Part shown: positions 14,252 to 58,209 of the stretch, piece by piece
Position numbering within the stretch: the stretch's first letter is position 1
How the letters are laid out: the number at the start of each line of letters is the position of its first letter
Assembly (NCBI GenBank): GCA_002005505.1
Contig: KV908546.1
Span: forward strand, 186,922 to 250,921
Length of the DNA stretch: 64,000 bases
Direction of reading: 5' to 3'
From: Botryococcus braunii
Lineage: Eukaryota; Chlorophyta; Trebouxiophyceae
Translations under genes and position numbers: made by a program
The notes under the pieces: generated by a model
Told to the model about the DNA's origin: nothing
Database searches by the model: none
The model's input: only the letters and a program-made list of their open reading frames with translations

Positions 14252-14952
14252 TGTTGAGTTGTGAACATACATTATAGAATGCCTTGTGCTTTAGGTGATC
14301 TTCAAATGTACATTATCAGGATACGGGTCCACTATCCACATAAGTTACCTCAAGACACGTTCGGATGAGGTCTATTTAGAACATAAGGTACAATCTGATC
14401 TAGATTACGCGTTAGTGTGAAAGGACTATTAAAGCTGCGATCACCGCACAGTCGAGCAACTGGTTTGGAAAGATACTAGGCACATAAGGATGCCAGTCTT
14501 GTTCATGCAGTTGCATGTGTCTAAAGAGCAGACAGTCGTCAAGGACTGTAGCTGGAGAGGCACGAACTTACGACCTGTCTGCTTGCTTACAGGTGCGGTG
14601 ACGCAGGGTGTGTATTGGTAATGTGTTCATGTTTGATTGCTTGTTTGTAAGTGAACCATCTTAGTGTACAATCAAGTCTCCCAAACAGCTAAGGGACGGA
14701 GTCTTGATTGAGTATAGGAAGGTACTTGCTTTCAGCCGTCAGGAGCTTATCCGTGTGTAGATGCTCATTGACAGATCAACATGTAACGGAACTGGTTTGG
14801 AAAGATACTGGACACATAAGGATGCCAGTCTTGTTCATGCAGTTGCATGTGTCTAAAGAGCGGACAGTCGTCAAGGACTGTAGCTGGAGAGGCACGAACT
14901 TACGACCTGTCTGCTTGCTTACAGGAGACGCCACTGCCCATAACATTTTACA
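14252..14952 (+). repeat. 3' LTR of Copia C with duplicated leader
   Basis: The LTR follows a polypurine tract (ggcaaggggaag) and runs from tgttgagttg to ttttaca (701 bp). It contains two 135-bp direct copies, 14458-14592 and 14790-14924. The first is followed by GTGCGG and the second by GAGACG. TGTAA at 14782-14786 lies 3 nt before the second copy. A 28-nt U5 follows. The copies differ at only about three positions. The layout matches the LTR of element F. Confidence 0.85.
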
Positions 14953-17737
14953 GTTTTGGTGTCATTCATGCTAACTATTTTGAAGGGACCTTTGAGCCCA
15001 GTTTGTAGTGGACCAGCAATGTTTGTGACTTCCAAAACCAAGTCCCCAACCTCCAAACCAGTGCACATTCTTTTGCCACGCAGTTTATGGGCTTGACCCA
15101 CAATGTTTTTGTGCATTGCATTGTCCAATGCACGTGCCACTCTGTTATACTGCTCTTGCAATTTGTCTTGTAACTTGCACACGTTATGTTCAGGAGAAAG
15201 GGCCTCTGCAACATTTACAAGCACATCTCTCACAGCCAAAGGCAATTTAGGAATATACCCATACAAAACTTCAGTTGGAGAGAGATTACATATCGACGTG
15301 TGTTTGCATGACATGTATGCTTGATGCACAGTGGGCAAAGACGAAGTCCAGTCAGTGGGAAAGTCATTGTATTGCTTGGTCAACATTCCCTTCACGGTTC
15401 TAACCAAACGTTCAACCACACCGTTTGCAGATGGGTGGTTGGGCGAGATCTGGATGTGATATATTCCAAGTCTCAAAAGCATGTGAACAAAATTAGCTGA
15501 AAACTCGTTACCATTGTCAGATGTAACAACAGTAGGTACACCATATCTAAAGATTCAGGCATTGTAAAAGGACTTAGACACTGACAAGGGGGTTTTGTCT
15601 TCAACAGTGACAAATACCGCAACTTTGGTGAAGTAATCAATCATGAGCACAACCCAAAGCTTTTGCTTGTCATGTCTGCCATCCTTATCCTTCGCCAGCA
15701 TGCGAGGAATCGGACCAAATAAGTCAATGTGAACATGATCCATTGGTCCGAACAGGGCAGGTTTCTGTAGCCGTGGTGGATCAGGCAGTCAAGCTCTGAG
15801 CTTCTGACATGGTTCACAAGTACGAACAAACAAGTCAACATCAGCCTTAATGCCAGGCCAATGAAAGTGCTGGTGCAAAACAACAAGAGTTTGTGAGACA
15901 CCGGGATGAGCAAGGACATCATGAATCATGGCAATAATGTCCCATCTGTACATAACAGGAGGGCAGACCAGCCAACGTGAGGGCTTACCGCGAATTTCCT
16001 TGTATACCATAAGCCAGTCACTGATGGACGGGTGCTGCGCAGAGAAGGACCCTCTCCTTCTGTATTCTGCTGCAAGTTGGGGAGGAAGACTGACCAAAAG
16101 GTCTAAGTTATGCTCACTTCGAATATAATCCAAAAATCCCTGGTCTCTGTAAGGATCAAATCTGTGGCATACTAAAGGTGTCTCTGCATTTTTGAGCTCG
16201 GCAATCTTCAGTTCACCCCCCTTGCCTAAGTACGGGTCACAGGCTGGACAAAACCAGCAGCCTCCTGGAACTACAGATCGAGGCGGGAACAAGCACTCCA
16301 AGTGGAAGCAACGATTACAGCCATCGCACAGGACAATGTTGTCGTCCCGCTGTTGGAACCCGCAAATAACACAAGGCACGGAATCCAAATCCTTTTGCTT
16401 GGCAGGGTTGGTTTCCCACACATGTGCAGTGGCATAAACGTGAACAGCTTCAGAATGAACGCAACGAGACAGACAATCAGCAACAAGATTCTCCTCCCCC
16501 TTCTTGTATTTAATTTCAATGTCGAAGTTTTGTAGGCGTAACGCCCACCGCTCCAACTTAGAGTTTGTGTGTCTTTTGGAATTCAAATACACAAGGGGTG
16601 AGTGATCAGTGTATGCAATGAACCGTCTGCCATGCAGAAAAGGACGAAACTTCTCACAAGCCCATACTAAGGCAAGACATTCACCTTCAGTGGAGGAGTA
16701 ATTCCGCTCTGCATCCTTTAACAATTTAGAAGCAAAAGCGACAGGATGATCAAAGTGCGTGTCAGGATCAGGTTGGCTTAACACAGCACCAATAGCAGTT
16801 TTAGACCAATCCGTCGTTAAAACAAAAGGAAGCTTGAAATTAGGAGCACGTAAAACGGGTTCAGAAGCAAGGCGATGTTTAACTTCATCAAAGGCAAGTT
16901 GGCACTCAGGGCTCCAGGCAAAGAAAGATGTCTTTTTCAGAAGGCGGGACAAGGGTTCAGTGATCCTGGCAAAATTTTCAACATATGTATGATAATAACC
17001 AGCAGCCCCTTATACTGACCTAGTGCCGGATACATCTCTCGGCTCTGACAGATTTAGTATAGCTGCAACATTGTCAGGATCTGGACGTAAGCAACCATCC
17101 CCAACCACGTGTCCCAATGTCTTCAAATACTTAGCACCAAAAATGCACTTGGGCCGTATGAGTTTGATTTTGTGCAAGGCAAGCTTCTCAAATGTGTCTC
17201 TAATATGTTTTACGTGCTGTTCCCAAGTTTCGGAAAACACATGTACATCATCTAAGTAAGCATGAGAAAATGAGGAGGAGCCTAACACATTATCCATCAG
17301 CCTTTGGAATGTACTGGATGCATTTTTAAGTCCAAATGGCATTCTCAACCACTCAAACTTGTCTTCATGGGTCATAAATGTAGTGTACTTGGAATGTTCC
17401 GGGTGCATAGACACTTGCCAAAAAGCAAAAGCGATATCCATGGCAGAAAAGTATTTTGCAGGGGCCATTTTACATTGCTTCAATGAGAGGCAAAGGATAA
17501 GGGTCTGACACAGTACAAGCATTCAAGGGTCTGAAGTCAATAAAAAGTCTGAGTGTGCCATCTTGCTTCTTTACGATAACTGGCGTGGACACCCAAGGCG
17601 ACATAGAAGGACGAATAATGCCTAACTCCAACAACATCTTCACTTCACCAGACAGGAACTCTTTTTCCTTTTCTGAATAAGTGGACATGTTACGAAATTT
17701 AGAAGGTGGATAAGACTCAGGTCTTAGTGTAGCGTGC
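14953..17737 (-). mobile_element. Decayed Ty3/Gypsy element D with a PHD finger
   Basis: This is the 3' part of a Gypsy pol on the minus strand, truncated on the right by repeat J and on the left by Copia C. It covers RT, RNase H, a PHD finger and integrase. It has a frameshift in early RT and in-frame stops (TAA near 17000, TGA near 15790 and 15560), so it is dead. No LTR of D is visible. Confidence 0.85.
14975..17730 (-). pseudogene. Pol of element D: RT, RNase H, PHD finger, integrase
   Basis: RT starts with HATLRPESYPPSKF at the J border and contains IIRPSMSPW, FGLKNASSTFQ and AYLDDVHV. RNase H shows LTTDWSKTAIGAVL and YTDHSPLVYL. Between RNase H and the integrase zinc domain lies a Cys4-His-Cys3 PHD finger (CVICG...CDGCNRCFHLEC...CPAC, about 16295-16395). 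The H2C2 motif follows (CEPCQ), then the DDE core split by two TGA codons, with DNG at about 15510 and the glutamate in NGVVER. The tail ends near 14953. PHD fingers read histone H3 tails, so it may serve as a chromatin-targeting module in place of a chromodomain. Confidence 0.88.
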
Positions 17738-19035
17738 TATAGGGTACCCGTGCCCAACGGTATCCAAAATTTTTCCCGTCTAAATGGTCGAATTTTATCT
17801 GGGGATAGATTCTGGGTTGTACTGCTGCGGTCAGTTACTGTTTTAAAGGTACGTCTGGACAGGATCGCCACCCAGGGATTACGGCCCTGAGACCTAGCTG
17901 TTACGGTGTGACAAATGTATTACGGTCCGGGGAAAGGCTCCGGGTTGCGGGTTCGGCTTTCGCCGGCTTGTTCGGGTCGGTCGGACTATTTTAGTCGGTG
18001 AGGCGCGCGGCTACCTAGCTGTGCGGCTACGGTTGAGAGGAATTAAACAATGGCGTCTTTCACGGTTCTGTTATTACTAAAACTATATTTGGCGAGCTTA
18101 CAAGGCTATTCAAGGATGTATCTATTCTTCCTTGGCTCGAGGGCTTGGGACGATTGTTCCCTACGGCTTGGGTGCGTGGCACTGAACGTGCGGCTTGATC
18201 TAGGTGGTGATGCTTCACCTATGTGTAGGTTACGACTAGGGCCATTGACAAATCTCCTTGGAAATGTTTGGACTTACTTGTTCGTGCGGGTGTTGCTTTG
18301 GTACTCTACCGGGGTACTACGGCTCCTTGGTACGTACGGTATGTTAATGCTTCAACGTTGCTTTACTGTGTATTACTCTGAATTACTATCACAAGTTCAG
18401 TATTTGAAACAATTATGCAGGTATCACTGCAGGTGTTGCTCAGGTGGAACTCGGTTGAACCTCGGATCTGGTAAGACTCAAACACACTAACGAGGCGTGG
18501 CCCGGACAGGAGGCAGAATTTGTGGCAAACCTTTTACAACCATTGTTTCTGGAATCTCACTGTAACTGTGAGGGGGAGGCATCCCTCTTTATATAGACAA
18601 CCGGCGCTTTCACATACATACCGGCGTAGCTCTCACGCAGCTAACTTTTTAGAATATATCAGAAGCGGTCTTGAACGGCTTAGAATTGCCAAATCATCAA
18701 TCTTTAGGTTCCAGTATGTTCGTTCAGGATCCAAAGGTATATACAGGTGTGTACCGATCGCTACATGGGCCCACGACTTGAAGGTACCCATGGGAAGGTA
18801 AATCAATGCAACTGAAGCTACTGTCAACTTCCGGCTATACTCCCCAAACGGGACTTCCTGAGGGTCCTAATTGGCCTTGGACGGGGCCAGAATTCAGGAG
18901 CCACAGGGCAAAAGGTCTTGCCCATTTTCTAGGTCTTATTCCCCAATGGGATGAAGATGTACCATCACAATTTCCACTCGATTCCGAGCTGTCAAATGTC
19001 TTCCTTTCGTCGGCATCTTATTTCCACTGATATTG
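17728..19035 (+). repeat. Tandem repeat J, copy 1
   Basis: This is a 1,308-bp unit starting at tgtagcgtgct followed by atagggtacccg. It is about 90% like the next unit, with several diverged patches near 18520-18560 and 18715-18850. I find no convincing protein. The best open frame (about 18050-18490) has no recognisable domain and is conserved only because the DNA is repeated. Its nature is unknown. Confidence 0.7.
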
Positions 19036-20420
19036 TGTAGCGTGCTTTATAGGGTACCCGTGCCCAACGGTATCCAAAATTTTTCCCGTCTAAATGGGTC
19101 GATTTTTATCTGGGTTTTGAGTCTGGGTTGTACTGCTGCGGTCAATTACTGTTAAAGGTACGTCTGGACAGGATCGCCACCCAGGGATTACGGCCCTGAG
19201 ACCTAGCTGTTACGGTGTGACAATTGATTTACGGTCCGGGGGAAGGCTCCGGATTGCGGATTCGGCTTGTCGGCTTGTTTCGGGTTGGCCGGACTATTTT
19301 AGTCGGTAGGGCGTGCGGCTACCTAGTGGTGTGGTCGCGGTTCGTGTGGACTTAAACAATTGCGTCTTTCAAGGTTCTGTTATTACTAAAACTATATTTG
19401 GCGAGCTTATAAGGCTATTCAAGGATGTATCTATTCTTCCTTGGCTCGAGGGCTTGGGACGATTGTTCCCTACGGCTTGGGTGCGTGGCACTGAACGTGC
19501 GGCTTGATCTAGGTGGTGATGCTTCACCTATGTGTAGGTTACGACTAGGGCCATTGACAAATCTCCTTGGAAATGTTTGGACTTACTTGTTCGTGCGGGT
19601 GTTGCTTTGGTACTCTACCGGGGTACTACGGCTCCTTGGTACGTACGGTATGTTAATGCTTAAATGTTGCTTTACTGTGTATTACTCTGAATTGCTATCA
19701 CAAGTTCAGTATTTGAAACAATTATGTAGGTATCACTGCAGGTGTTGCTCAGGTGGAACTCGGTTGATCCTCGGATCTGGTAAGACTCAAACACACTAAC
19801 GAGGCGTGGCCCGGACAGGAGGCATGAACTTGGGGGCGAACTCTTACAACCAGCCAATTTTCGAACTCACTGTAACTGTGAGGGGGAGGCATCCCTCTTT
19901 ATATAGACAACCGGCGCTTTCATGTGCATACCGGCGTAGCTCTCACGCAGTTAACTTTTTAGAATATATCAGAAGCGGTCTTGAACGGCTTAGAATTGCC
20001 AAATCATCAATCTTTAGGTTCAGGTACATCCGTCGGCATCTATCGGTAGGTGCCTTTAAGTGCCGATCACTTCCATGGGGCGACACCACACAGCACCCAC
20101 GAGAAGGTAAATCTATTCAGTCTGAAGCCAATGTCTACTTCTGGCTGTACTCCCTAACACGGGACTTCCTGAGGGTCCTAATTGGTCTTGAAAGGGACCA
20201 GAATCGGGAGCCTACAGGGTAAAAGGTCGCCAAATTTCTAGGTCTTATTCACCAATGGGATGAAGTTGTACCATCACAATTTCCACTCGATTCCTAGCTG
20301 TCAAATGTCTCTCTTTCGCCGGCATCATATTTCTACCGGTTTCGCATCATAAACACAACAATTATTGATTGTCCACTTGCAGTCACAGCCACACGCCATT
20401 TCACGACATATGTAGCGTGC
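19036..20420 (+). repeat. Tandem repeat J, copy 2, and closing 10-mer
   Basis: The second unit is 1,375 bp and ends with an extra stretch absent from copy 1. The sequence tgtagcgtgc occurs at 17728, 19036 and 20411, once at each border. The leftmost copy is part of the coding sequence of element D (HATLRPE on the minus strand). It may therefore be a duplicated target site. No terminal inverted repeats were found. Confidence 0.65.
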
Positions 20421-21165: not shown

Positions 21166-22669
21166 TGTTGTGTATTAGTTGGAGGATGCCGTAACTGTAA
21201 GCGGTACGTATGCCGTAGGAGAATCACTTCCTGTGAACACCACCAAGTAATCTCAATGTCTATATAGACCAGTGCTCGCACTGCCGTCTATATCTGCCGA
21301 CTGCTCTCCGATCAGGACACCCTTGGCCCTTCAGCAGTCCCAGGAGTTTAATGGCTACTCCCAACCAATCGCTATAACCAGTGTGCAACTCGTCACACAC
21401 AAATAGCCTTACTGTTCGCACAACAGTAACATACAAGCAATGCAGCTCCTGTATTGAAATGAATGTGACAGCAGTATATCAAGCAGTCCTTCAATACAGA
21501 GCAAACACTATTCAGCTTGGAGCTCGAAGCCCAGATGCATTCCACACCCCATCGACTCGTTACAAATGGTTTACGTATATTTACCTGTGAACACCACCAA
21601 GTAATCTCAATGTCTATATAGACCAGTGCTCGCACTGCCGTCTATATCTGCCTGCATCCGAGCGTTACGATTTACTTGTGGGTTCATCAGTGTCCATAAA
21701 ATATATCTAAACCACATAAAACACACACGCAACCTATCCACATATGTGTACGTACCGACTGCTCTCCGATCAGGACACCCTTGGCCCTTCAGCAGTCCCA
21801 GGAGTTTAATGGCTACTCCCAACCAATCTGCACAATATGTGGATCATCAGAGATCAAAACAAAACAGTTATTTAACCAGCAGGAGCATGCTTGTTATACG
21901 TATCTGTACTCACCGCTATAACCAGTGTGCAACTCGTCACACACAAATAGCCTTACTGTTCGCACAACAGTAACATACAAGCAATGCAGCTCCTGCAACA
22001 CAAGACACATGTAATGTTTCATAATCAGCAGAAACATCAGTATGCATGTGCTTAACGCCTACGATCGCAGCCACACGACTGCGACCGTTACCCTTGCCAG
22101 CGATCGCAAGCTTACCTGTATTGAAATGAATGTGACAGCAGTATATCAAGCAGTCCTTCAATACAGAGCAAACACTATTCAGCTTGGAGCTCGAAGCCCA
22201 GATGCATTCCACACCCCATCGACTGCCAAGCTTGCTCGCGATCTGGCGTTTCTATGCCTTCTGATCGTAACCGGCGGTAACGGTACAGTTCCTTTCGAGA
22301 GGCTGTACCGTACTGCATGGTCACATAAACAACCCTGACTTGGCCCTATGCCAACGTGTAGCTCTATAGCTGCACCAGGGATCTCATACTTATACACGCG
22401 TACACACTCAATGGAGTCTTTACCTTGTGACCTTACCGTCACTAGTACAAGACCTGTACTGCATGGAGGTCACTTATATGATCAACCTAACTGAACATAA
22501 TACAATACCCTTTGACACGCAATCAGGCGCATCTTCTTACTTGTACTCCACACGTGGAGAAATTCAAGTTATACAATGTTTCCTAGAACCACTTGATAAA
22601 CTGATAGCGCCCCTGTATCTTGTACGTTTGCCATCACGTATCTATACGTACCTATCAGTTTATACAACA
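21166..22669 (-). repeat. 3' LTR of element H with intron-bearing and processed leader copies
   Basis: On the minus strand, U3 is 22669-22225. Exons follow at 22224-22116, 21992-21914, 21827-21756 and 21651-21585 (109, 79, 72 and 67 nt). They are separated by GT-AG introns of 123, 86 and 104 nt with donors GTAAGC, GTGAGT and GTACGT, each ending in GCAG. At 21584 a fourth donor GTAAAT begins. After 27 nt, ending TGTAACG, a 327-bp copy (21557-21231) of the four exons follows without introns. It ends in CACAG. U5 (21230-21166) closes the LTR. Confidence 0.92.
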
Positions 22670-22813
22670 ATCTTCCCCTTTTAGAAAACATGTATAATGT
22701 CGTTCATTAATGTTGAGTTCAATTGTTCCCATTAACGCACTACTCTTCCGAGCCAAACTTAGAATCTTAGAAGCCCTAAAGCCCTAAAGCCCTAGAACTT
22801 CAACACTCTAGGC
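22670..22813 (-). other. 3' untranslated segment and polypurine tract of element H
   Basis: The minus strand reads AAAAGGGGAAGAT directly before the 3' LTR at 22670-22682. The rest of the segment, up to the pol stop, holds a short AT-rich run and no gene. Confidence 0.75.
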
Positions 22814-25800
22814 TTAACCCATTCTCAAGCTGTCACGATGCTTGAGAAATGCTGGACTGGCCAACGGCTTTGTAAAAATGTCAGCCACATTTTCCTCTGT
22901 GTTGACGTACACCGGCGTGATCTGCCCCCATGCTACCTTTTCCCTCGCTTGATGATAGCACACGCTAACATGCTTGGTGTACTTGGACAATACATGGTTT
23001 TGCAGATTTGCAATACAGCCCATGTTGTCCATTCTTAATTCTACACCAGACACAGACTGACCGAGCTCCTCCAACAAGCTCCCAAGCCATACTCCTTCCT
23101 TTATTGCATGGCTGGCCGCAATAAACTCCGCCTCGACATTGGAAGTAGCAACTGACTGTTGCTTCTTACTTCCCCACGACACTGCTCCCCCATTCAGCAT
23201 GAACACGAAACCAGTTGTTGATTTTCGCGTATCAACATCTCCCGCAAAATCTGAATCTACAAAGCCAGCCAGACTTTGCTTCCCCTTTCCCCCATAAACC
23301 AAACCCATCTCCTTGGTGCCCAACAGGTATCTCACAATCCTCAACCCTGCACGCATGTGTGCAGTGGTTGGGGCAGCACGGTAACGTGCCAGCAGGCTTA
23401 CTGCCTGTGAAATATCAGGACGAGTGGTATTGGCCAGGTACTGCAGTGACCCTACGAGTTCCAGGTACCGGTGTCCGTCCGGTAGTGGAGACCCTGAACC
23501 CGCACTCTCATCCCCCACCTTCCCTTGTGGAAGCTCTGTCTGCACAAAGCTTTTACACATGGGTGTGCTCACTCCCTTGTCACTCTCACTCACTCCAAAT
23601 GACTCCGCAAGATCCTTGATCTTCTGAGTGTTGGAAATCACTATCACTCCCCCATCGCGATCGCGCCTGACTTCACTTCCGAGGAAGTTCTTCACTTCCC
23701 CCAAGTCGTGAACCTTAAATCTTGCTTTCAACTCACCCTTGATTTCTGACACTCTCTCACCACTCTTGCAGATGATCAGCAAATCATCCACATAGGTAAC
23801 AATGAACGCCCGGTCTTCACCCCTTCCGGAGTCCAAGAATAAGGCCGGGTCGCTCCTACATGCCTTGAAACCCATCTCTCCAAGATCCTTGGAGAGCCTT
23901 TTGTGCCATGCCCGAGGTGCCTGCTTGAGTCCATACAAAGCCTTCCTCAAGCGAAACACCTCCTTTTTATCACCATTAGAGAAACCAGGAGGCTGCGTTA
24001 CATACACCTCCTCCTCTAATTCTCCATTGAGAAATGCCGTCTTGATATCCACTTGGTGGATTTCAAGATTTTCTGTTGCTGCAATATTCAGCAACACTCT
24101 CCTACATGCATGGGTGCTGACAGGTGCAAAGGTTTGATCACAATCTATACCTTCTACCTGCCTGCAACCTTGCGCTACGAGTCTTGCCTTAAACCGGATG
24201 ACATCGCCATATTCATCCGTCTTTAAGGCAAACACCCAAATCAGAGGAATCACTTTTGCTCCCTCTGGCCTCCTCACCACCTCATACGTGTCACATTCTT
24301 CAATAGCATCTAGCTCCTCTTGCATGGCTTGCTTCCAGTACTCCTTTTGAGGACTGGCAAGCGCTTCTCCAATGTGTTTTGGAATGGACAACTCTGATGC
24401 TTTCAATTTTGCCTCCTCAACTACTACTGCATGGGCTTTTACTTGCGTGTGATATGCCCCAGGAACATACTTATCTGGCGGGCCAACTCTCTCTCTCAAT
24501 TCGTAACGCCCACCACCTCTTCCCCTCTCTGCATTCTCCTCATTATCATGCTGCTCTTCGTCTCTCTCACTTGCCTGCCCTTGACTTTCACCATCACCAT
24601 TTCCCTCACCAGTCACTTCCCCGGCTGGAAGTTCTGCAGGAAGCTGCTGCAGCACCTCCCGTGCACGCCTCATGACTTCATGCATATCGTCCGTTCGTAA
24701 TTCCGGGTTTATCGCAATTTCGCGTGGGGCATCAATTGCCTCTTCCAGGGAAACCTCAGGTACCTCCTCTTCATCATGAAACAACTCTTCAACCCTCATT
24801 TCAGGTTGTAGTGTGGGTGGAGTTACAACCGGATAGCCCAACTCATCTTCAATAAATCTCACATCCTTACTCACCATTACCTTGCCTTGCACCAGGATCC
24901 GATACGCCTTGGATCCTGTTTCATATCCCACAAACATGCCCGCAACTGAGCGCGGACCAAGTGCTGACAGCTGCCTATCAGGCAGCTTCACATAAGCCAA
25001 ACAACCCCAAACCTTCAGGTGAGCAACTGAGGGTTTCTTGCCATAGAATGCCTCATACGGACAAGACTCCTTTCCACTGACGGCACTCACATTCAGCAGT
25101 CGTACCACAGTGTGTGCTGCCTCAGCCCATAGTTCAGGCCCTGCCTCTGCTGTGAAGAGGAGAGCCCTCACTCGTTCCTTGATTACCCTGTTTACACGCT
25201 CTACCTTGCCATTTTGTTGAGGCGTGTACGGTGCAGAGGTCTGATGCGCGATCCCCTTTCTGGCAAAGAAATCTGCCAGCTCGCGATTTACAAATTCAGT
25301 ACCTCTGTCCGTCCTAACAGTGCCAACTTTACATTTAGTTGACACCTCCCAATTCAAGAGGACCTCTTGAACGAGTGCTCCTACCTCAGTCTTTGAACTG
25401 AACGTCCTGATTTGGATTCTATGCGAGAAGTCGTCCAAAAGGACCAGCATATACTTCTCTCCATTCAGCCCAGCCACAGGCAGCTCTCCCACTACGTCCA
25501 TATGGACCAGCTGAAGTCTCTCAGTAGACTCAGCCGCAGTGGAGGAAGGCGTGGGAGTCCTAGTCTGCTTCCCCCGTATACAACCGTCACAGTGAGTCAC
25601 AACTCTTTCTGCTTCACCCACACTTCCTTTAACCTCATTCACAATCTGCTCTCTCAACATTCTTGACATGCATACAACTCCCGGATGTCCCAACCTTTTG
25701 TGCCACAACTCTGTCTCTTCTCGTGTAGTTACTAAAAGTGCAGCCGCCCCTCCCCATGCACAGAGCCCACTTTTGTGTGACAGGAAGTATAAGCTCCCTT

Positions 25801-27106
25801 TCGGTTCAATGTCACACATGAACTCATTTGCTTGGCACATGACAGCCACATATTCCCCTTTTTCATTTACAGAGAATGTGCATCCATCTTTGACAGCAGC
25901 TGACACGGACAAGAGGTTATCAGTCGCTGTCGGGACATACTCAACATGTGTAAGCAACACACTTCCCCCACCTTGCACAGATAGACACACATTTCCCTGT
26001 GCCTTTCGCAATCCTTGACCATCACTCGCTGCCAGTCCCAGTGGTTTGGCTTCATCATAAACAATGACATTGGACATTAAATGCAAATCATTGCATATAT
26101 GGTTAGTAGCACCCGTGTCAACAATCCACTGCCCTTCCCCAGTGTTTTGTAACTTTGAGGATGCCATCCCTGCCCTTGGATTTACCTCTTCTCCAGTGGG
26201 TGGGTTACCTCGGTTAGGAGGGTGCACAAGTCTTGGGCAGTTCACTTTAATGTGCCCCCTCTCACCACACTCATAGCATGTCCGATTATCGTTCCTGACA
26301 GCCGGACCCGGCTTGCGGACAACAGCCGCCCTTGGAGCCCTTGGTTGCTGATCATTGAAACCAATGGTTTCTGCAACCACCCTTACAGCAGCCAAGGTTT
26401 GGTTAATATTGCATGTAGCAGTGGAAGAAGATAAACTTGGTTTATGAGCATCAAACTGGTACGGAAGGCACTTCAGGATTGACTTCTTGAGTTTTGTTTG
26501 CGTTACTGGCATGTTGTTATCGTTCAGTCTTTTTGCCAGCAGCTCTTTCCTAGCCACATATTCTTCCAACGTGCCCTCATTCCCCATTATTTCACTGTCC
26601 AACAGCTCCAGCCATTGGTCATTGATTTCCAAGTTTGCTCCCCCTTGGAACTGGCTCATAATCCATTTAAATGCCACTGCTGCAGATTCAGCAAATGCCA
26701 CCTTCTGAGCCCACACTTCTGGAACCTTTTGCAGCAACAAATGCAGTGCCACTGCATCCCCTTTAGTCCCCGGCATGGACGTTTTTAGGCATTCCAGCAC
26801 ATTCCTGCTCACGGCACAATGGAACACAATTTGTTTCCAGATGTCCAACGAAAAACCCAGTCTATCTAAGGAGGTGGTGACCTGCAGACTGGAGTTCACT
26901 GGACTCGTCGGATCTTCCCGGCCAGATGTACTGGCCGGTTCAGATCCCCTAGCCACTGCTGTTCCAACTCCTGAATCTCTTCCCATGTCAGTCGCTGTAA
27001 CCCCATCACTGGTTCCAGCCACCCCCGTGAGATCCCCTCGTAGGTCTGGAAGTAATCCGGATGGAGCCGCAACGGATTGAGTCCCAGCTCCTCCACCTCC
27101 CTCCAT
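22814..27106 (-). CDS. gag-pol: Gag-Pol polyprotein of Copia H
   Basis: This 1430-residue polyprotein is uninterrupted. The order is Copia type: a UBN2-like Gag (SSLQVTTSLDRLGFSLDIW through about residue 230), a CCHC knuckle (CYECGERGHIKVNC), protease (WIVDTGATNHICND), a pre-integrase H2C2 motif (LWHKRLGHPG...CDGCIRGKQ) and an integrase core (TDRGTEFVN, PQQNGKVERVN). RT (VDIKTAFLNGELEEEVYV, YVDDLLII) and RNase H (DSDFAGDVDTRKSTTGF) follow. Integrase precedes RT, as expected of Ty1/Copia. An ATG is present at 27106, but expression by -1 frameshift from ORF1 is also possible. Confidence 0.93.
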   Translation of the reverse strand: MEGGGGAGTQSVAAPSGLLPDLRGDLTGVAGTSDGVTATDMGRDSGVGTAVARGSEPASTSGREDPTSPVNSSLQVTTSLDRLGFSLDIWKQIVFHCAVSRNVLECLKTSMPGTKGDAVALHLLLQKVPEVWAQKVAFAESAAVAFKWIMSQFQGGANLEINDQWLELLDSEIMGNEGTLEEYVARKELLAKRLNDNNMPVTQTKLKKSILKCLPYQFDAHKPSLSSSTATCNINQTLAAVRVVAETIGFNDQQPRAPRAAVVRKPGPAVRNDNRTCYECGERGHIKVNCPRLVHPPNRGNPPTGEEVNPRAGMASSKLQNTGEGQWIVDTGATNHICNDLHLMSNVIVYDEAKPLGLAASDGQGLRKAQGNVCLSVQGGGSVLLTHVEYVPTATDNLLSVSAAVKDGCTFSVNEKGEYVAVMCQANEFMCDIEPKGSLYFLSHKSGLCAWGGAAALLVTTREETELWHKRLGHPGVVCMSRMLREQIVNEVKGSVGEAERVVTHCDGCIRGKQTRTPTPSSTAAESTERLQLVHMDVVGELPVAGLNGEKYMLVLLDDFSHRIQIRTFSSKTEVGALVQEVLLNWEVSTKCKVGTVRTDRGTEFVNRELADFFARKGIAHQTSAPYTPQQNGKVERVNRVIKERVRALLFTAEAGPELWAEAAHTVVRLLNVSAVSGKESCPYEAFYGKKPSVAHLKVWGCLAYVKLPDRQLSALGPRSVAGMFVGYETGSKAYRILVQGKVMVSKDVRFIEDELGYPVVTPPTLQPEMRVEELFHDEEEVPEVSLEEAIDAPREIAINPELRTDDMHEVMRRAREVLQQLPAELPAGEVTGEGNGDGESQGQASERDEEQHDNEENAERGRGGGRYELRERVGPPDKYVPGAYHTQVKAHAVVVEEAKLKASELSIPKHIGEALASPQKEYWKQAMQEELDAIEECDTYEVVRRPEGAKVIPLIWVFALKTDEYGDVIRFKARLVAQGCRQVEGIDCDQTFAPVSTHACRRVLLNIAATENLEIHQVDIKTAFLNGELEEEVYVTQPPGFSNGDKKEVFRLRKALYGLKQAPRAWHKRLSKDLGEMGFKACRSDPALFLDSGRGEDRAFIVTYVDDLLIICKSGERVSEIKGELKARFKVHDLGEVKNFLGSEVRRDRDGGVIVISNTQKIKDLAESFGVSESDKGVSTPMCKSFVQTELPQGKVGDESAGSGSPLPDGHRYLELVGSLQYLANTTRPDISQAVSLLARYRAAPTTAHMRAGLRIVRYLLGTKEMGLVYGGKGKQSLAGFVDSDFAGDVDTRKSTTGFVFMLNGGAVSWGSKKQQSVATSNVEAEFIAASHAIKEGVWLGSLLEELGQSVSGVELRMDNMGCIANLQNHVLSKYTKHVSVCYHQAREKVAWGQITPVYVNTEENVADIFTKPLASPAFLKHRDSLRMG

Positions 27107-27876
27107 GATGGCAGTCGGTCAAATACTGCCTTACTCTGCCCTTGGTGTAAACGAAACTGGAACTGTACCAGCTCGATATACACGTGGTATTCTCTGTACC
27201 ACCTGAGTACCTGTCCTGTACCCTCTCTTCCCTCAACAATAGCTCTGTCGAGAAAGAACGAAGGAAAACCTTCCCGTGGCCCGTCTGCAGTTAGCTTAAA
27301 TAACTCCTGCAAACGGTTCCACACTTTCAGAAAATAGTGCACCTCCCAGTCTTCTTTTGGAAGGCTCTTCCCGTATAGCTCTGCTACCTCATGCACCAGG
27401 CTATCAGCAAGGGGATCACTGAACACAATCAATTCCTCCCACTTGACCAAAATGGGCTCCTCTCGTGGCTGTGTCAGACCAGCCAAGAATGCCGTTGATA
27501 TGATTCCTTCACACAGAGCGGACCCTTCTTCACTTTCACAAGTCTTAACAAAGATGTAGTTTGCTCGTTCAACAGGATCAGGAAGATTGTTCAGCACAAT
27601 GTCTTGGTGATGCACAATTGGCCTTTGAAATTGACCCTTTGGAACACCAGGCCTCTCAATATGAATATACAGACCCGGGTCTCCAAAATAGTCAGGAACT
27701 TTAAAGTGAGTCCTGACAAAAGGAATGGGATACTCTGAGTATTCCGGTCTTCTTGGATGCTGTTGACGTACTGCAGGTCGCAGTCCTCTTCCTCTCGTTG
27801 TTGGGAAAGGTCTCGGCGTCCGTTGCTCTTCAGGTTCCGGTGTATCTTCGATCACAATGACTTCCTCCTCTGGCAT
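26896..27876 (-). CDS. ORF1, conserved protein of unknown function in Copia H
   Basis: This 326-residue protein starts at an ATG 27 nt inside the LTR, so it is the first ORF on the genomic RNA. I do not recognise a domain. It is clearly related to the ORF at 34558-35361 of element I. Shared blocks include IVHHQDI.L.NLP.PV, RANYIFV, LVKWEEL, LPKEDWE.HYFL and VFDRLPSW. The N-terminus is acidic and then Arg/Pro-rich. It overlaps gag-pol by about 210 nt, and gag-pol is in the -1 frame relative to it, which would allow programmed -1 frameshifting. A role in RNA binding or particle assembly is only a guess. Confidence 0.8.
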   Translation of the reverse strand: MPEEEVIVIEDTPEPEEQRTPRPFPTTRGRGLRPAVRQQHPRRPEYSEYPIPFVRTHFKVPDYFGDPGLYIHIERPGVPKGQFQRPIVHHQDIVLNNLPDPVERANYIFVKTCESEEGSALCEGIISTAFLAGLTQPREEPILVKWEELIVFSDPLADSLVHEVAELYGKSLPKEDWEVHYFLKVWNRLQELFKLTADGPREGFPSFFLDRAIVEGREGTGQVLRWYREYHVYIELVQFQFRLHQGQSKAVFDRLPSWREVEELGLNPLRLHPDYFQTYEGISRGWLEPVMGLQRLTWEEIQELEQQWLGDLNRPVHLAGKIRRVQ

Positions 27877-27884
27877 GCAGCAAG

Positions 27885-27900
27885 TTGTGGGCCCAGCACC
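27885..27900 (-). other. Primer-binding site region of element H
   Basis: Just inside the 5' LTR the minus strand reads GGTGCTGGGCCCAC. It resembles the half-tRNA site of elements F and I (GGTTATGGGCCCAC) but differs in the anticodon-loop bases. It may use another tRNA half or a mutated site. Confidence 0.45.
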
Positions 27901-27902
27901 TT

Positions 27903-29406
27903 TGTTGTGTATTAGTTGGAGGATGCCGTAACTGTAAGCGGTACGTATGCCGTAGGAGAATCACTTCCTGTGAACACCACCAAGTAATCTCAATGTCTAT
28001 ATAGACCAGTGCTCGCACTGCCGTCTATATCTGCCGACTGCTCTCCGATCAGGACACCCTTGGCCCTTCAGCAGTCCCAGGAGTTTAATGGCTACTCCCA
28101 ACCAATCGCTATAACCAGTGTGCAACTCGTCACACACAAATAGCCTTACTGTTCGCACAACAGTAACATACAAGCAATGCAGCTCCTGTATTGAAATGAA
28201 TGTGACAGCAGTATATCAAGCAGTCCTTCAATACAGAGCAAACACTATTCAGCTTGGAGCTCGAAGCCCAGATGCATTCCACACCCCATCGACTCGTTAC
28301 AAATGGTTTACGTATATTTACCTGTGAACACCACCAAGTAATCTCAATGTCTATATAGACCAGTGCTCGCACTGCCGTCTATATCTGCCTGCATCCGAGC
28401 GTTACGATTTACTTGTGGGTTCATCAGTGTCCATAAAATATATCTAAACCACATAAAACACACACGCAACCTATCCACATATGTGTACGTACCGACTGCT
28501 CTCCGATCAGGACACCCTTGGCCCTTCAGCAGTCCCAGGAGTTTAATGGCTACTCCCAACCAATCTGCACAATATGTGGATCATCAGAGATCAAAACAAA
28601 ACAGTTATTTAACCAGCAGGAGCATGCTTGTTATACGTATCTGTACTCACCGCTATAACCAGTGTGCAACTCGTCACACACAAATAGCCTTACTGTTCGC
28701 ACAACAGTAACATACAAGCAATGCAGCTCCTGCAACACAAGACACATGTAATGTTTCATAATCAGCAGAAACATCAGTATGCATGTGCTTAACGCCTACG
28801 ATCGCAGCCACACGACTGCGACCGTTACCCTTGCCAGCGATCGCAAGCTTACCTGTATTGAAATGAATGTGACAGCAGTATATCAAGCAGTCCTTCAATA
28901 CAGAGCAAACACTATTCAGCTTGGAGCTCGAAGCCCAGATGCATTCCACACCCCATCGACTGCCAAGCTTGCTCGCGATCTGGCGTTTCTATGCCTTCTG
29001 ATCGTAACCGGCGGTAACGGTACAGTTCCTTTCGAGAGGCTGTACCGTACTGCATGGTCACATAAACAACCCTGACTTGGCCCTATGCCAACGTGTAGCT
29101 CTATAGCTGCACCAGGGATCTCATACTTATACACGCGTACACACTCAATGGAGTCTTTACCTTGTGACCTTACCGTCACTAGTACAAGACCTGTACTGCA
29201 TGGAGGTCACTTATATGATCAACCTAACTGAACATAATACAATACCCTTTGACACGCAATCAGGCGCATCTTCTTACTTGTACTCCACACGTGGAGAAAC
29301 TCAAGTTATACAATGTTTCCTAAAACCACTTGATAAACTGATAGCGCCCCTGTATCTTGTACGTTTGCCATCACGTATCTATACGTACCTATCAGTTTAT
29401 ACAACA
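27903..29406 (-). repeat. 5' LTR of element H
   Basis: The LTR starts TGTTGTATAAAC on the minus strand and ends ACACAACA. It is essentially identical to the 3' LTR, and so has the same U3, intron-bearing leader copy, TGTAA and processed leader copy. As the upstream LTR it would drive transcription. Confidence 0.93.
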
Positions 29407-30997
29407 CCCATGCTCCAGGGCTTTCAAGGGCGGCTTGCCCGAGCTTCTCTTTCAAAGTGCCATGAAACCTCTTGACGAGGCCGTTGGCTTGTGGATGGTA
29501 TGGGCTGGTCTTTCTTACTTCTATGAAGCATTGGTCCATTAATGTCTGGAATTCTCCTTGCCATTCCTGGCCATTGTCCGTAATAACAATCTGGGGGCAG
29601 CCGTGCCGTGCCAGAATCTCTTCTTTGAAAAATTTTGCGGTAGTCGATGCCTCTTTGTTTGGGATAATCTTGGCCTCCACCCATTTGGTGAGGTAGTCTA
29701 TGGCGGTGGCAATGTACACTTTCTCTCGCCCCGAGGGCGCATCCATGGGTCCTGTCAGGTCCACTCCAATCATATCGAGGACCCCCGTGACGGCTACGGG
29801 AGTCAGCTCCACCGGCTTGGTGAGCTGAATGGTCCTGTATTGACATCCAGGGCAATGCTGGATGTATATTTTGACGTCGAGGGACATATCTGTCCAGTAA
29901 AAGCGCTCCTTGACAAGATGAATTGTACGGTTAATTCCGTAGTGGCCCATGTCGTCGTGTAGCTCCTTAATGATGTCAAGTCTGTCCTCGTACCATGGTA
30001 CGGTACGTGGGCCAAATCCTCTTGTGGCCTTTCGTACAAGTGGCCAGTTGCGAGTCCTCCATTCAATAGGGAATTCTTCGGCGGCAAAGTAGTAGTTCTG
30101 GGCCCGGCGTGCTATTCGCTTAGCATCCTTGCGGCTTGTCCCAGGTCGGTGTCGTTTGTCGGCGGCTAGGTAGTCAAGTACTTCTTCATCGTCCACAATG
30201 TCACGAGTGGGGACGGCATCTGCAATCTGGTCACATAAAGGGCATAGCCAGGGTCCCCTGGGTACCCGGACCAGTGCAGGCTCCAAACAGTCGATGTGGT
30301 ATCCGTGGTCGCAGAGGTCACATAGTAGCATGGTCTCCTCATCATCTCTTCCCGTGCATACTTGGCACGGTACATCCTCCATAAGCGGCGGGCTGTCAAA
30401 ACGCGTACGCGGTGTAGTCATAGGTTCTTGGCTGGCCAGGGCGGCAGAACGGCCAGATAAAGTCTCTGTAGACGGTGGCAGGTCATAAATCGGTGTTGAT
30501 ACAATTCTCATCTCCGGAAGGTAGTCCCTGGAAGGAAGTGCATCATCCTCCGGGGTCATCATGCGGCGTAGGGTTGGTGAAGTTATTATCTCTCCACGCT
30601 GAGTGGTCTCGTACGCGGGTGGCTGGTAAGGCTGGTCCAGGTCCAATGTGTCTTTGGCGGGCGGCATATTTTCCTTGTCCAAGGTCATGGTGTAGCAGCA
30701 GTGCATGTGGTTCTCCTCAATAATTTCTTTTTCTTGCGGCGGCGGCGGCGGCGGCTCTTCACTGTAGTCTTCACCAGGGGGTGGCTGTAGGCGTAGACGA
30801 GAAAGGCAGTCCACATTCCCATGCAAGGTCCCCGAGCGGTGCTGGATGTCAAAGTCATATTCTTGTAGTTCGATGGCGTATCGTGCTAGCTTGCCGGACA
30901 AATGCGTGTGGTGAGTAACAACTTTAAAGCTTTGTGGTCTGTTACTATAGTAAATTGAACTCCATAGAGGTAGGGGCGGAATAGCTTCACGGCCCAC
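29407..30997 (-). pseudogene. Element G RNase H end, PHD finger and integrase core
   Basis: The frame opens at the end of RNase H (VVTHHTHL, HRSGTLHGNVDCLSR). A Pro- and acid-rich linker of about 150 residues follows. Next is a PHD finger (CQVC...CDLCDHGYHIDC...CPLC, about 30235-30375). The integrase follows, with the H2C2 motif (HDDMGH...HCPGC) and the DDE core. The first two acidic residues are visible (GVDLTGP, TDNGQEW), but the third reads NGLVKR where family members have NGxxER, so the catalytic glutamate is replaced by lysine. The frame is cut at 29411 by H. Confidence 0.88.
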
Positions 30998-33192: not shown

Positions 33193-34521
33193 TGTTGTGT
33201 CTTGGGAGAGATATAACATAAGGTACGGATCTGCTTGTGCGGAGATACGTATACGTAAGTATGGGAGCTCTCTCTCGTTCACACCATTGGTTTTGGACAC
33301 GTCACATAAAGTGAATAGAGGGACATATGATGTGAAAAGAAAAACGCCTGCATCAGGACACAAAAATTGCCGTTATATACTAGGAGACCTGGAGAGAAAG
33401 TTCTCCGTGGGTGACATGAGTTCATAGCCTATCACGCAAGTACAGATCTCAGTCAGTGAAGTTCAAAGAACCATGATGGAGATCCTATTGTGAGTGTACA
33501 CGTGTAGGACAGGTGTATAAGTTACAGCATAAGTCTGTACTTCGTGGGTGTGACAAGTGTACTTCACACACTTAGGATGTGATGATAAAGTACACTTGTC
33601 AGCGGTGATCTGCGATTGTGCATAATGCACGATCAGGCTAGGAGGGGCAGGTCGGCAGCGTGGTCCTCAGACAGTTGGAACTTCATCTTTGAGTTGCCTG
33701 GAGTCCTTTGAGTGTGAACACTAGAGGACCTGTCTGAGACCTGCCGGAGTATTGCTCTCACTGATATCATGCTATACTTGTGCATGTGGGCTGCGTGAGA
33801 GAATATCGGTAAAACTCGGTTAGAGCATCGGCAGTGCTTGGTACATGATAAAACATAAGTGTTAATGAGTGCCATTTAGTTGTGAAGACTGAATAACATT
33901 CAGTACTGTGCAGGAGGTTGTTGTTTTCTGTCTTTTGAGACAGTGCGAGCTGCATAAGTGTAAGTGTATACACGTGTGGGCAGCGGTAAGAACACCTCCT
34001 GATAAAACTTGTACATTGATGGAAGACATTGTGTTGTTTAGTTACTGGTGTAAGTATGATACTGATAGAGAGCAATGTACGTGACTCGTACAGGTGGTCA
34101 GTTACGAGGACGACGTCATAACTGATGCGAATGCTTGAGTATGTGACAGATACTTACGGTTGCGAACATGTAATAAACAACACCATGTAAAGAGACAGTT
34201 GGATCTTCATCTTTGAGTTGCCTGGAGTCCTTTGAGTGTGAACACTAAAAGACCTGTCTAAGACCTGCCGGAGTATTGCTCTCACTGATATCATGCTATA
34301 CTTGTGCATGTGGGCTGCGTGAGAGAATATCGGAGGTTGTTGTTTTCTGTCTTTTGAGACAGTGCGAGCTGCATAAGTGTAAGTGTATACACGTGTGGGC
34401 AGCGGTGGTCAGTTACGAGGACGACGTCATAACTGATGCGAATGCTTGAGTATGTGACGGATACTTACGGTTGCGAACAGGTGCTTATTCTACAAATACG
34501 GACATCAACTCCAACACAACA
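33193..34521 (+). repeat. 5' LTR of element I with intron-bearing and processed leader copies
   Basis: Exons are at 33669-33808, 33914-33985 and 34094-34169 (140, 72 and 76 nt). Introns are 33809-33913 (GTAAAA...GTGCAG) and 33986-34093 (GTAAGA...GTACAG). A third donor, GTAATAAAC, begins at 34170. It contains AATAAA and then TGTAA (34186-34190). A 288-bp copy of the joined exons starts at 34193 and ends ...CGAACAG at 34480. A 41-nt U5 closes the LTR. The last base pair of exon 3 here is T where the 3' LTR has the consensus G. Confidence 0.92.
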
Positions 34522-34524
34522 ATA

Positions 34525-34539
34525 GGTTATGGGGCCCGC
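34525..34539 (+). other. Primer-binding site of element I (half-tRNA type)
   Basis: GGTTATGGGGCCCGC begins 3 nt after the 5' LTR. It is complementary to the anticodon-loop side of a tRNA fragment ending ...GGGC(C)CCATAACC, as in eukaryotic initiator tRNA-Met. One extra G is present compared with element F. Confidence 0.65.
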
Positions 34540-34557
34540 TGCAATCTCCAATGGAGC

Positions 34558-35361: not shown

Positions 35362-35362
35362 C

Positions 35363-39585: not shown

Positions 39586-39695
39586 CGGGTGAGAATGAGA
39601 GAGAAGGAGAGTAATGGACTTCTGTACAAAACAAAACTCAATTAGTAATGAACAGACATTGAACTTTATAAGTGAGTGTCCAAAAGGGGAAGTAT

Positions 39696-49957: not shown

Positions 49958-50189
49958 AGTGGGTCCACACATATTACCATCCTTAGCACCACAACAACCA
50001 TATCACCATGACCATCACCCTCACCACACCAGGAACATCACCACCGACCTCCCTATCACCAGTACCATGACTATCCCATGCCCCAAAATTATTCCCATGA
50101 CCTTCAGCATGATCTTCTCCATAAATATCACCATCAGCATCCATCTCCATATCCCCCTGTATTTGTATATTCCCATGAATATCAGCATC

Positions 50190-51280
50190 CATCTGGGCCC
50201 AGTATGCAGACTGGTGCAACCCAATGCCATCTATCTTCCTTCCCCAATATGCCAACTGGGGAAGGGAGCAACAACTGGGCCCAGTGTGCAGACTGGTGCA
50301 ACCCAGGATCATCCACCTCCCTGCCCAATATGCCAATTGGGGAAGGGAGCAACAAGATCTGGGCCCAGTAGGCAGACTGGTGCAACCCAATGCCATCTAT
50401 CTTCCTTCCCCAATATGCCAACTGGGGAAGGGAGCAACAACTGTGCCCAGTATGCAGACTGGTGCAACCCAGGATCATCCACCTCCTTGCCCAATATGCC
50501 AATTGGAGAAGGGAGCAACAACATCCGGGCCCAGTATGCAGACTGGTGCAACCCAATGCCAAGTATCTTCCTTCCCCAATATGCCAAGTGGGGAAGGGAG
50601 CAACAACTGTGCCCAGCATGCAGACTGGTGCAACCCAGGACCATCCACCTCCCTCCCCAATATGCTAATTGGGAAGGGAGCAACAATTGGGCCCAGCATG
50701 CAGACTGGTGCCACCCAGGACCATCCACCTGCCTTCCCCAATATGCCCACTGGGGAAGGGAGCAACATCTGGGCCAGTATGCAGACTGGTGCAACCCAGG
50801 ACCATCCACCTCCCTTCCCCAATATGCCAAATGGGGAAGGGAGCAACAACTGGGCCCAGTATACAGACTGGTGCAACCCAGGATCATCCACCTCCCTGCC
50901 CAATATGCCAATTGGGGAAGGGAGCACCAATATCTGGGCCCAGTATGCAGTCTGGTGCCACCCAGGACCATCCACCTCCCTTCCCCAATATGCCACTTGG
51001 GGAAGGGAGCAACAACTGGGCCCAGTATGCAGACTGGTGCAACCCAGGATCATCCACCTCCCAACCCAATATGCCAATTGGGGAAGGGAGCACCAATATC
51101 TGGGCCCAGTATGCAGACTGGTGCAACCCAGGACCATCCACCTCCCTTCCCCTATATGCCAATTGGGGAAGGGAGCAACAACTGGGCCCAATATGCAGAC
51201 TGGTGCAACCCAGGATCATCCACTTCCCTACCCCAATATGCTAATTAAGGAAGGGAGCAACAACTAGACCCAGTATGCAG
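50190..51280. repeat. 82-bp minisatellite, about 13 copies
   Basis: Units begin around cagtatgcagactggtgcaa at 50200, 50282, 50366, 50448 and onward to 51272, with a spacing of 82-84 bp. Each unit contains ccaatatgccaa and ggggaagggagcaa. Two unit types alternate in part (accatccacctcc and atgccatctatcttcc variants). The plus strand of the unit has no stop codon in any frame, so it gives long open frames that do not look like genes. Confidence 0.97.
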
Positions 51281-51283
51281 ACA

Positions 51284-52340: not shown

Positions 52341-52575
52341 GTGCCTTTACCCTGACGGTGCCGATGGGCTAGAGTCCGGTGCAGTTCGACAGAATGAAAG
52401 GGCGGAATCCGGACGAGGACGCCTGTGTCCAAGGATAAAACGCCCGAGTCCGAAGGTGCATGTCCAGAGGTGAGAACCCAGAAATTCTAAGCAGTGCAAC
52501 AGACCGAGCAGCGGCGGAAAAAATGCGCATAAGGCAGAGGCCTTGAAATACACCCACGCTCCACCAATGGAAAAC
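52341..52575. other. Intergenic segment between L and K
   Basis: No coding frame or repeat is recognised. The last five bases, aaaac (52571-52575), are the candidate target duplication of Copia K. Confidence 0.5.
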
Positions 52576-53305
52576 TGAACAATTCTGGGCGTAATGTTCC
52601 CTGTATGTCCCGGCACGAAGGGTGTTAAGCTCGGTCGGGTCTCTTGCTGTGTGTCGGAGAGCAAGCAGAGCCCGACTATGTGTTGGCACTTGTGGCAACT
52701 GATCAGAGATAAGCACCCGGAGTGCTCTTTCAGTCCCAAACAAGTCATTACATTGCTTCTTGCTCTCTCTCAACGCCAAGGAATTCAAACTACCTCTTCT
52801 AGGCATTGACAGATAGTTCGCATTACCATTGTTCGATGAGCCAAGCATTAGCAACATTCTAATACTCTTATCTAGACCTCTTCCTAATCAATTTGTCCAT
52901 GCAAGTTACACTAAGATGCAGCACTTCACCTGTATGTCCCGGCACGAAGGGTGTTAAGCTCGGTCGGGTCTCTTGCTGTGTGTCGGAGAGCAAGCAGAGC
53001 CCGACTATGTGTTGGCACTTGTGGCAACTGATCAGAGATAAGCACCCGGAGTGCTCTTTCAGTCCCAAACAAGTGCCGTGCCCTTCATGCCTGCTGCCTA
53101 TATCCTTTCTCGCAAGGACGCGTCAAATTGCATTACTCTCTCTCTCCAAAATGGAATCGGTCCAGATCAATTATGGCAGAACTCTAGAGTTCTGCCAACC
53201 ATTACTCTACCTCTAAGATTGTTCACATTGATTGCTATAGGGAAGCCTAGCCACTATTACTCTTCTGAGGGAAAGTCACTAATTTGTTCCTTCACTATTA
53301 TAACA
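52576..53305 (-). repeat. 3' LTR of Copia K with duplicated leader
   Basis: On the minus strand the LTR starts TGTTATAATAG. A first 145-bp leader copy (53074-52930) ends ACATACAG/GTGAAG. A second identical copy (52745-52601) ends ACATACAG/GGAAC and is preceded by TGTAATG, so TGTAA is 2 nt upstream. U5 is about 25 nt. The outer end at 52576 is inferred from U5 length in C and F. Confidence 0.82.
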
Positions 53306-54436: not shown

Positions 54437-54454
54437 TTGTGTCGTAGAATGCAC
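53324..54454 (-). pseudogene. Copia K RT end and RNase H
   Basis: The true fragment begins at QAPRAWHKTLNEKLHTMGY (54441) and runs through YVDDLLIVSKG, FLGCQVMRDREKG and RNase H (DADYGGDQDHRFSTTGY) to a stop at 53324. It is uninterrupted within this part. The first residues of the open frame (54442-54454) come from the LTR of E. Confidence 0.9.
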
Positions 54455-57515: not shown

Positions 57516-58209
57516 TGTTGAGTTCTGAACATTATTATTGAATGCCTTGTGCTTTAAGTGATCTTCATGTGTGCACTATTAGGATATGGGTCCATTGAGA
57601 ACATAAGGTACCTTGAGACACGGCAGTTTCTGGACGTTTTCGAACATAAGGTACAATCCTATCTAGATCACACGTTTGTCGGATGAACTCTTAAGGCTGC
57701 CCCACCGGAGTGAATACCAACTGGTTGTGAAAGATGCTGGGCATCACCAGATGCTAGTCTTGTCCGACAGTTGTGTGTGGCACTCAGCAGACAGTCGTAC
57801 GGACTGTAGCTGGAGTAACTTCGTCTATTGACGACCTGTCTGCTTTGTACAGGTACGGTGCGGCAGTGTGTGTTGTATCATTGTTGCTATTGTGAGAGTG
57901 AACAAGCTTAGTGTACCCTGTAGTCACTCAAACAGATAAGGGACAGTGACTTCAGGGAGTATAGGCATGTACTTGAACGTAGCCGTCTAGAGCCTTATCT
58001 AGTGATTGCTTGATCGGTGCTTGTGTACAAGATAATGATGTAACGGAACTGGTTGTGAAAGATGCTGGGCATCACCAGATGCTAGTCTTGTCCGACAGTT
58101 GTGTGTGGCACTCAGCAGACAGTCGTACGGACTGTAGCTGGAGTAACTTCGTCTATTGACGACCTGTCTGCTTTGTACAGGGAAAGCCGATTGCCCATAA
58201 CCTTTCACA
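57516..58209 (+). repeat. 5' LTR of element F with duplicated leader
   Basis: The LTR runs from TGTTGAGTTC to CTTTCACA (694 bp). U3 is about 57516-57718. Two identical 134-bp copies lie at 57719-57852 and 58047-58180. The first is followed by GTACGG (5' splice site), the second by GGAAAG. TGTAA is at 58039-58043, 3 nt before the second copy. U5 is 29 nt. Two ATAAGGTAC motifs lie in U3 (57603 and 57646). Confidence 0.93.

Follow-up and report, generated by a model that had tools for sequence, protein, structure and literature searches.

Copia elements of Botryococcus braunii very probably rewrite one of the two leader copies in their LTRs from spliced RNA

We analyzed a stretch of 64,000 nucleotides (nt) from the green alga Botryococcus braunii (contig KV908546.1, positions 186,922 to 250,921; G000:C226:186922-250921), hereafter the window, in a genome of 176 Mb and 989 contigs. 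The window holds five retroelements of the Copia type with long terminal repeats (LTRs), named C, F, H, I and K. Pieces of all five contain the reverse transcriptase (RT) domain RVT_2 (Pfam PF07727), which is preceded by the integrase domain rve in F, H and I; C and K were scanned with their RT piece only. Coordinates for H and I were absent from an earlier note on this DNA, and these elements were taken as 33193-41025 (forward strand) and 21166-29406 (reverse strand), respectively. Target-site duplications (TSDs) of 5 bp could be read at 14 of the 19 loci of H and I (none in L011; those of L015, L046, L047 and L048 were unreadable) and at the I element of the window. The polypurine tract AAAAGGGGAAG lies ahead of the 3' LTR in most H and I loci, and the sequence that follows the LTR, a candidate primer-binding site, is similar to the complement of the anticodon arm of initiator tRNA-Met. 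With RVT_2, an integrase before the RT, LTRs of the form TG..CA, 5-bp TSDs and a polypurine tract, these elements are like other Ty1/Copia elements (Pseudoviridae). They are unlike them in that a leader sequence stands twice in each intact LTR; in H and I, one of the two carries introns and the other does not.

The earlier note had proposed a common layout for these LTRs, in which copy 1 of the leader runs into a GT splice donor, TGTAA stands just upstream of copy 2, copy 2 ends in CAG, and a short unique 5' region (U5) follows. The repeats of C, F and K were recovered at the positions it gave (Table 1): the 135-nt copies of C differ at 3 places, and those of F and of K are identical. We measured ten Copia families with one LTR each, five of them chosen on the RT domain alone. 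The RVT_2 search scored the best 150 of 2658 candidates, and seven places were picked by hand for their differing scores. The layout is present in L089 and L095 (one family, also called M), L090, L091, L093 and L094; L092, of the L090 family, is truncated within copy 1. In all ten families a GT donor follows directly on copy 1, TGTAA ends 1-3 nt ahead of the first A of copy 2, and CAG closes copy 2. The junction reads CAG/GT in nine; the exception is the 5' LTR of H in the window (CAT/GT), and the 3' LTR of this element and most of its relatives have CAG. Counted by eye, U5 measures about 25 nt in K, 28 nt in C, 29 nt in F, 41 nt in H and 65 nt in I, as proposed. The bases at -1 and +1 of copy 1 are C/A in ten of ten families. 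Copy 2 is homologous from the +1 A onward and is preceded by G, T or C, with C/A in only two families. Since the two copies are 97-100% identical over 96-328 nt, and since a random TGTAA at one of the three permitted positions has a probability of about 1% or less in each family (each LTR piece holds one to five TGTAA), chance can be excluded as the cause of this arrangement. The ten families are not fully independent, as C resembles F and the leader sequences of K, L089 and L093 seem to be related to one another. Copies were also compared in further LTRs of K, where they are identical in 16 of 17 two-copy LTRs, and of C, where they are 0-3 differences apart across 10 distinct two-copy LTRs. 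Copy 1 of F, used as a DNA query, gave no matches, itself included, the search being one that skips common words; F is therefore represented by the window and locus L066.

Beyond what the earlier note had observed, copy 1 contains internal introns in H (two, of 104-105 and 107-109 nt) and I (three, of 123, 86 and 104 nt) that are absent from copy 2, which consists of three and four joined exons, respectively. For these two families a genome search scored the best 40 of 119 first-look candidates for H and the best 40 of 193 for I. Loci were collected at 39 of the 40 H places (the one left out lies at a contig start) and at all 40 I places, and they provided 71 intact two-copy LTRs (35 H and 36 I). 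Eight other LTRs were either collapsed (both of L009, and L052) or incomplete (L025, L028, L054 and the first LTRs of L047, with N upstream, and L048). The H LTRs of L017 (G000:C200) and L018 (G000:C187) share the coordinate 297395 on different contigs; the assembly may hold this stretch in duplicate or as two alleles. In every two-copy LTR, 35 of 35 for H and 36 of 36 for I, the introns are kept in copy 1 and exactly absent from copy 2, and intron loss from copy 1 was found in none of the 71. The borders are GT-AG for intron 1 of H in 34 of 35, for intron 2 in 35 of 35 and for the last intron in 33 of 35; the corresponding counts in I are 35, 36 and 36 of 36 for the internal introns and 35 of 36 for the last. 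In H and I, copy 2 is the intron-free version of copy 1. Because GT-AG introns are exactly missing from it, we regard copy 2 as a spliced complementary DNA (cDNA) of copy 1 within the same LTR, that is, as a DNA copy of spliced element RNA. The last intron, from the donor of copy 1 to the CAG of copy 2, is still present in the DNA, and its borders strongly suggest that it is spliced as well. C, F, K and the five further families, with the last intron only, may have lost internal introns by splicing in the 3' LTR. In L051 a private insertion that contains a second donor-like stretch lies in exon 4 of copy 1, and copy 2 is normal.

The earlier note had predicted near identity of the copies within an LTR even where families diverge, and this comparison gave a median of one difference per LTR in H and I. 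The mean number of differences between copies 1 and 2 is 3.2 of 293 columns (H) and 1.4 of 328 columns (I) within an LTR, versus 17.1 (H) and 3.4 (I) between LTRs. The observed sums were never reached in 20,000 permutations (p <= 5e-5 per family, the two LTRs of one element not being independent). Non-major alleles occur in both copies versus one copy 417 versus 32 times in H and 44 versus 2 times in I. Twenty-four columns separate subfamilies A and B of H, and the same recombinant pattern of these columns is seen in both copies of the second LTR of L011 and of L013, L026, L027 and L033; in L029, an old copy with 28 differences, the mosaic nearly matches between the copies. For 14 elements that have a 5-bp TSD and two intact LTRs, the divergence between the LTRs served as a clock. 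The 31 differences found between copies 1 and 2 fit the 34.6 expected to have arisen after insertion, so the copies were all but identical at integration.

The junction ahead of copy 2, here called the linker, behaves differently from that ahead of copy 1 in H and I. Column variability, determined with one LTR per locus and with L016 left out, places the columns before copy 2 as the two most variable of 1072 in subfamily B of H (12 loci), as the most variable of 1043 in subfamily A (15 loci) and as the second most variable of 1240 in I (26 loci), where the first lies in U5. Ahead of copy 1, the five bases are the same in all 35 H LTRs and in all 36 I LTRs. Both LTRs have the same linker in 12 of 12 I loci and in 4 of 7 H loci (L010, L013, L014 and the H element of the window); the three with unequal linkers are L012, L011, which has no TSD, and L015, where LTR homology reaches the contig start and which is perhaps an array. 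We read this hot spot of H and I as nucleotides that would be added when the RT arrives at the capped end of the RNA, as is known from other RTs.

The sequence around the copies also suggests where the RNA may begin and end. Scored with a simple matrix made for this analysis, the best TATA-like match between -38 and -23 lies at -28 to -32 of copy 1 in all ten families, and is scattered at copy 2; the mean score compared with random positions gave P = 8e-4 for copy 1 and 0.066 for copy 2. In excerpts of two published studies, UGUAA peaks at -17 in chlorophytes (PMC1868727) and lies at -10 to -20 in Chlamydomonas (PMC4701671). On the basis of this spacing, the poly(A) site is predicted about 5-13 nt inside copy 2, which would leave a repeat region (R) of about 10 nt. 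The distance from the putative start at copy 1 to the putative poly(A) site in copy 2 is about 150-670 nt across the ten families and points against one contiguous R block.

Taken at the level of the DNA, the introns, the concerted copies, the clock, the C/A start, the TATA-like position and the TGTAA spacing support the model of the earlier note, in which a spliced leader is copied into strong-stop cDNA that pairs with copy 2 at the RNA 3' end. The RNA start sites, the splicing of genomic RNA, the poly(A) sites and the pairing step are inferred from these features. According to the model, the RNA would start at the +1 A of copy 1 in the 5' LTR, and splicing of the leader would remove the internal introns of H and I as well as the last intron, with TGTAA and copy 2 inside it. 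In the 3' LTR TGTAA would be active, because the last acceptor is not in the RNA there, and would direct cleavage just inside copy 2. Because the leader is spliced, the minus strong-stop cDNA would consist of U5 and spliced copy 1; it would anneal to the 3' end of the RNA over roughly 10 nt, and its extension would cross the spacer, the intron-bearing copy 1 and the unique 3' region (U3). The new LTR would then read U3, intron-bearing copy 1, spacer, spliced cDNA as the new copy 2, and U5, with copy 1 as the master. We consider it highly probable that these are Ty1/Copia elements in which R is split over two places of the LTR and copy 2 is rewritten in every cycle from the spliced leader. It is also quite likely that splicing is obligatory in the replication of the Copia elements of this alga, such that only spliced RNA rebuilds the LTR, R extends over two leader copies and every LTR contains a newly made cDNA of its own leader.

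Some LTRs depart from the usual structure in ways that bear on this model. The earlier note had named as refuting evidence any young element in which copy 2 matches other elements and not its own copy 1. This pattern is clear in one of 71 two-copy LTRs, L016. In L016, the U3, copy 1, spacer and linker are of type B, copy 2 is identical to type A and U5 is of the A type, with 30 differences between the copies; we therefore place a template switch from one RNA to another in the first 11 nt of copy 2. In L056 the acceptor at the end of copy 2 is lost (CACATT) and copy 2 is longer, with CACAG, the donor end of copy 1, joined to an AG that lies in exon 3 of an earlier copy 2. This is the structure expected if RNA spliced at a cryptic acceptor had been reverse-transcribed. 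Both LTRs of L009, which has a TSD, are collapsed to U3, exons and U5, and L052 and three K LTRs are also collapsed. Such LTRs may result from mispairing of strong-stop cDNA with copy 1, and DNA recombination could give the same product. The three K LTRs (L085, L086 and L087; G000:C162 near 101447, 107712 and 114110) are consecutive, have the order U3, copy, U5, and lie 6.3-6.4 kb apart.

Several observations weigh against this cycle. The copy 2 of L016 is unlike its own copy 1, and strand transfer between two different RNAs would account for it. Copy 2 has its own copy 1 as the nearest or tied nearest sequence in no more than 22 of the 35 H LTRs and 22 of the 36 I LTRs, so that single LTRs often do not settle the relationship. 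Of the distinct copy differences, 8 of 106 in H and 3 of 46 in I recur in more than one locus, the remainder being private. In 4 of the 14 clock elements one copy difference is shared by both LTRs and was therefore present before integration; such differences are expected if copy 1 derives from the 3' LTR of the parent and copy 2 from the 5' LTR, or from RT error. The linker differs between the two LTRs of the H element L012, which has a TSD, and it is invariant in K (TG in 17 of 17 two-copy LTRs) and C (CGG in 10 of 10 distinct ones), for which reason we rejected a linker hot spot common to all families. TATA-like scores are weak in H, F and M. The pairing would use an R of only about 10 nt even though copy 1 offers a far longer match, and the introns of copy 1 would have to escape splicing in the 3' LTR part of the same RNA, as they would otherwise be lost from copy 1. 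Finally, the query for the H and I searches was the intron-free copy 2, so an intron-retaining copy 2 would be under-sampled; an intron-less copy 1 would not be.

Three other explanations were weighed against rewriting from the spliced leader. The elements could have an ordinary LTR whose short R lies at copy 2, where the RNA would start behind a poly(A) signal in U3 as in mouse mammary tumor virus (MMTV), copy 1 being a passive duplicate. Such a start requires no splicing, and TGTAA ahead of +1 of copy 2 resembles the poly(A) signal that stands a few nt upstream of +1 in MMTV, which has an R of 15 nt (excerpts of PMC12789967). However, C/A and the best TATA-like position are found at copy 1 and not at copy 2, and the allele-by-allele match of the copies and the exact absence of the introns would be left unexplained. 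Considering the initiator, the TATA-like position, the introns and the concerted evolution, we rejected as very unlikely a model in which the RNA starts at copy 2 and copy 1 is a relic.

Direct repeats within one LTR can recombine, and collapsed LTRs do exist, which would suit a duplication at the DNA level that is homogenized by gene conversion or unequal crossing-over. Exchange between DNAs should, however, move introns into copy 2 or erase them from copy 1, whereas the difference is one-sided in 71 of 71 H and I LTRs (with the bias of the intron-free query). Moreover, the repeat is bounded by C/A and by a splice-like CAG in ten of ten families (CAT at the measured copy 1 of H), and L056 reads as a splice product. 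Conversion at the DNA level was rejected on the introns, and we regard it as extremely improbable. The absence of introns would also be explained by a single event, if copy 2 had arisen from spliced RNA a single time, in an ancestor, and had since been inherited as an ordinary part of the LTR. This possibility conflicts with the agreement within LTRs across diverged subfamilies, the shared mosaics and the small number of copy differences since insertion, all of which call for repeated rewriting. The within-LTR clock led us to reject a one-time origin, which has hardly any probability left.

Rewriting of copy 2 from a spliced leader can be compared with what is known of other retroelements. HIV-1 (human immunodeficiency virus type 1) and foamy virus have a splice donor in the leader. 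As in the elements described here, they have a 5' poly(A) site that has to be ignored (excerpts of PMC12789967). Unlike in MMTV, the signal here would be transcribed at the 5' end too and would have to be spliced out. The genomic RNA of HIV-1 is unspliced according to excerpts of PMC7912102, whereas here it is the spliced RNA that seems to regenerate the LTR. The plant LTR elements Ogre and EVADE likewise have functional introns, and their RNA is spliced; in the excerpts of PMC12786077, however, these introns serve subgenomic RNAs and none is placed in an LTR. Compared with other Ty1/Copia elements, splicing of the genomic leader appears obligatory here. Our search of the open-licence literature, partly aimed at side questions, gave no description of an intron-bearing LTR of this kind. 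Among the 120 matches listed in an RT protein search, the only named taxa were Volvox africanus, Chlorella vulgaris, Closterium and one land plant, all of them distant, and a scan of viral contigs with the RT piece of H revealed no relative.

Table 1. Coordinates of the LTRs, leader copies and predicted signals in the window.
Feature	Position	Strand	Remarks
C LTR	14252..14952	+	end inferred from TG..CA and alignment with F
C copy 1 (leader)	14458..14592	+	predicted +1 A at 14458; donor CAG/GTGCGG
C predicted last intron	14593..14924	+	GT at 14593 to CAG at 14924
C TGTAA poly(A) signal (predicted)	14782..14786	+	intronic in a 5' LTR
C copy 2	14790..14924	+	
F 5' LTR	57516..58209	+	3' LTR starts at 63834 and runs on in locus L066
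F copy 1	57719..57852	+	donor CAG/GTACGG
F TGTAA	58039..58043	+	
F copy 2	58047..58180	+	
K LTR	52576..53305	-	putative ends, read from the sequence
K copy 1	52930..53074	-	donor CAG/GTGAAG
K TGTAA	52748..52752	-	
K copy 2	52601..52745	-	
H 5' LTR	33193..34522	+	3' LTR 39696-41025; TSD AAGTC
H copy 1	33669..34169	+	three exons, two introns (about 33809-33913 and 33986-34094)
H TGTAA	34186..34190	+	
H copy 2	34193..34480	+	three exons joined, intron-free
I 3' LTR	21166..22669	-	5' LTR 27903-29406; TSD ATGGG
I copy 1	21585..22224	-	four exons, three introns (123, 86, 104 nt); last donor CACAG/GTAAAT
I TGTAA	21560..21564	-	
I copy 2	21231..21557	-	four exons joined, intron-free

The window contains further repeats. 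Identical 226-nt repeats lie 5862 nt apart within element C (6722-6947 and 12584-12809) and are possibly the LTRs of a nested insertion. Pieces of Gypsy-type polyproteins are located at 15789-16952 and 29306-30997, and in them a PHD finger precedes the integrase zinc-binding domain; for the piece at 29306-30997, 8 relatives were found among 6658 candidates. A Gypsy integrase of the window matches, with 97% identity over 32% of its length, a EukProt entry whose label, Botrbrau1, we take to mean B. braunii. A 1.3-kb stretch is tandemly duplicated with 90% identity at 17727-20336, and a tandem array of units of about 82 nt with a higher order of 166 nt (50177-51282) overlaps open frames of 347 and 429 amino acids.

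Retroelements usually prevent the splicing of their genomic RNA. In the Copia elements of B. braunii splicing seems to be required, and it would leave a DNA record in each insertion; if true, this is an unusual route of self-copying. Because all ten families fit, obligatory splicing may extend to a whole algal lineage. The strand-transfer site, additions at the cap end, the mixing of RNAs and the avoidance of the 5' poly(A) site could then be addressed from sequence alone, and the LTRs would provide a natural case of a sequence block that is rewritten in each generation by an upstream master copy.

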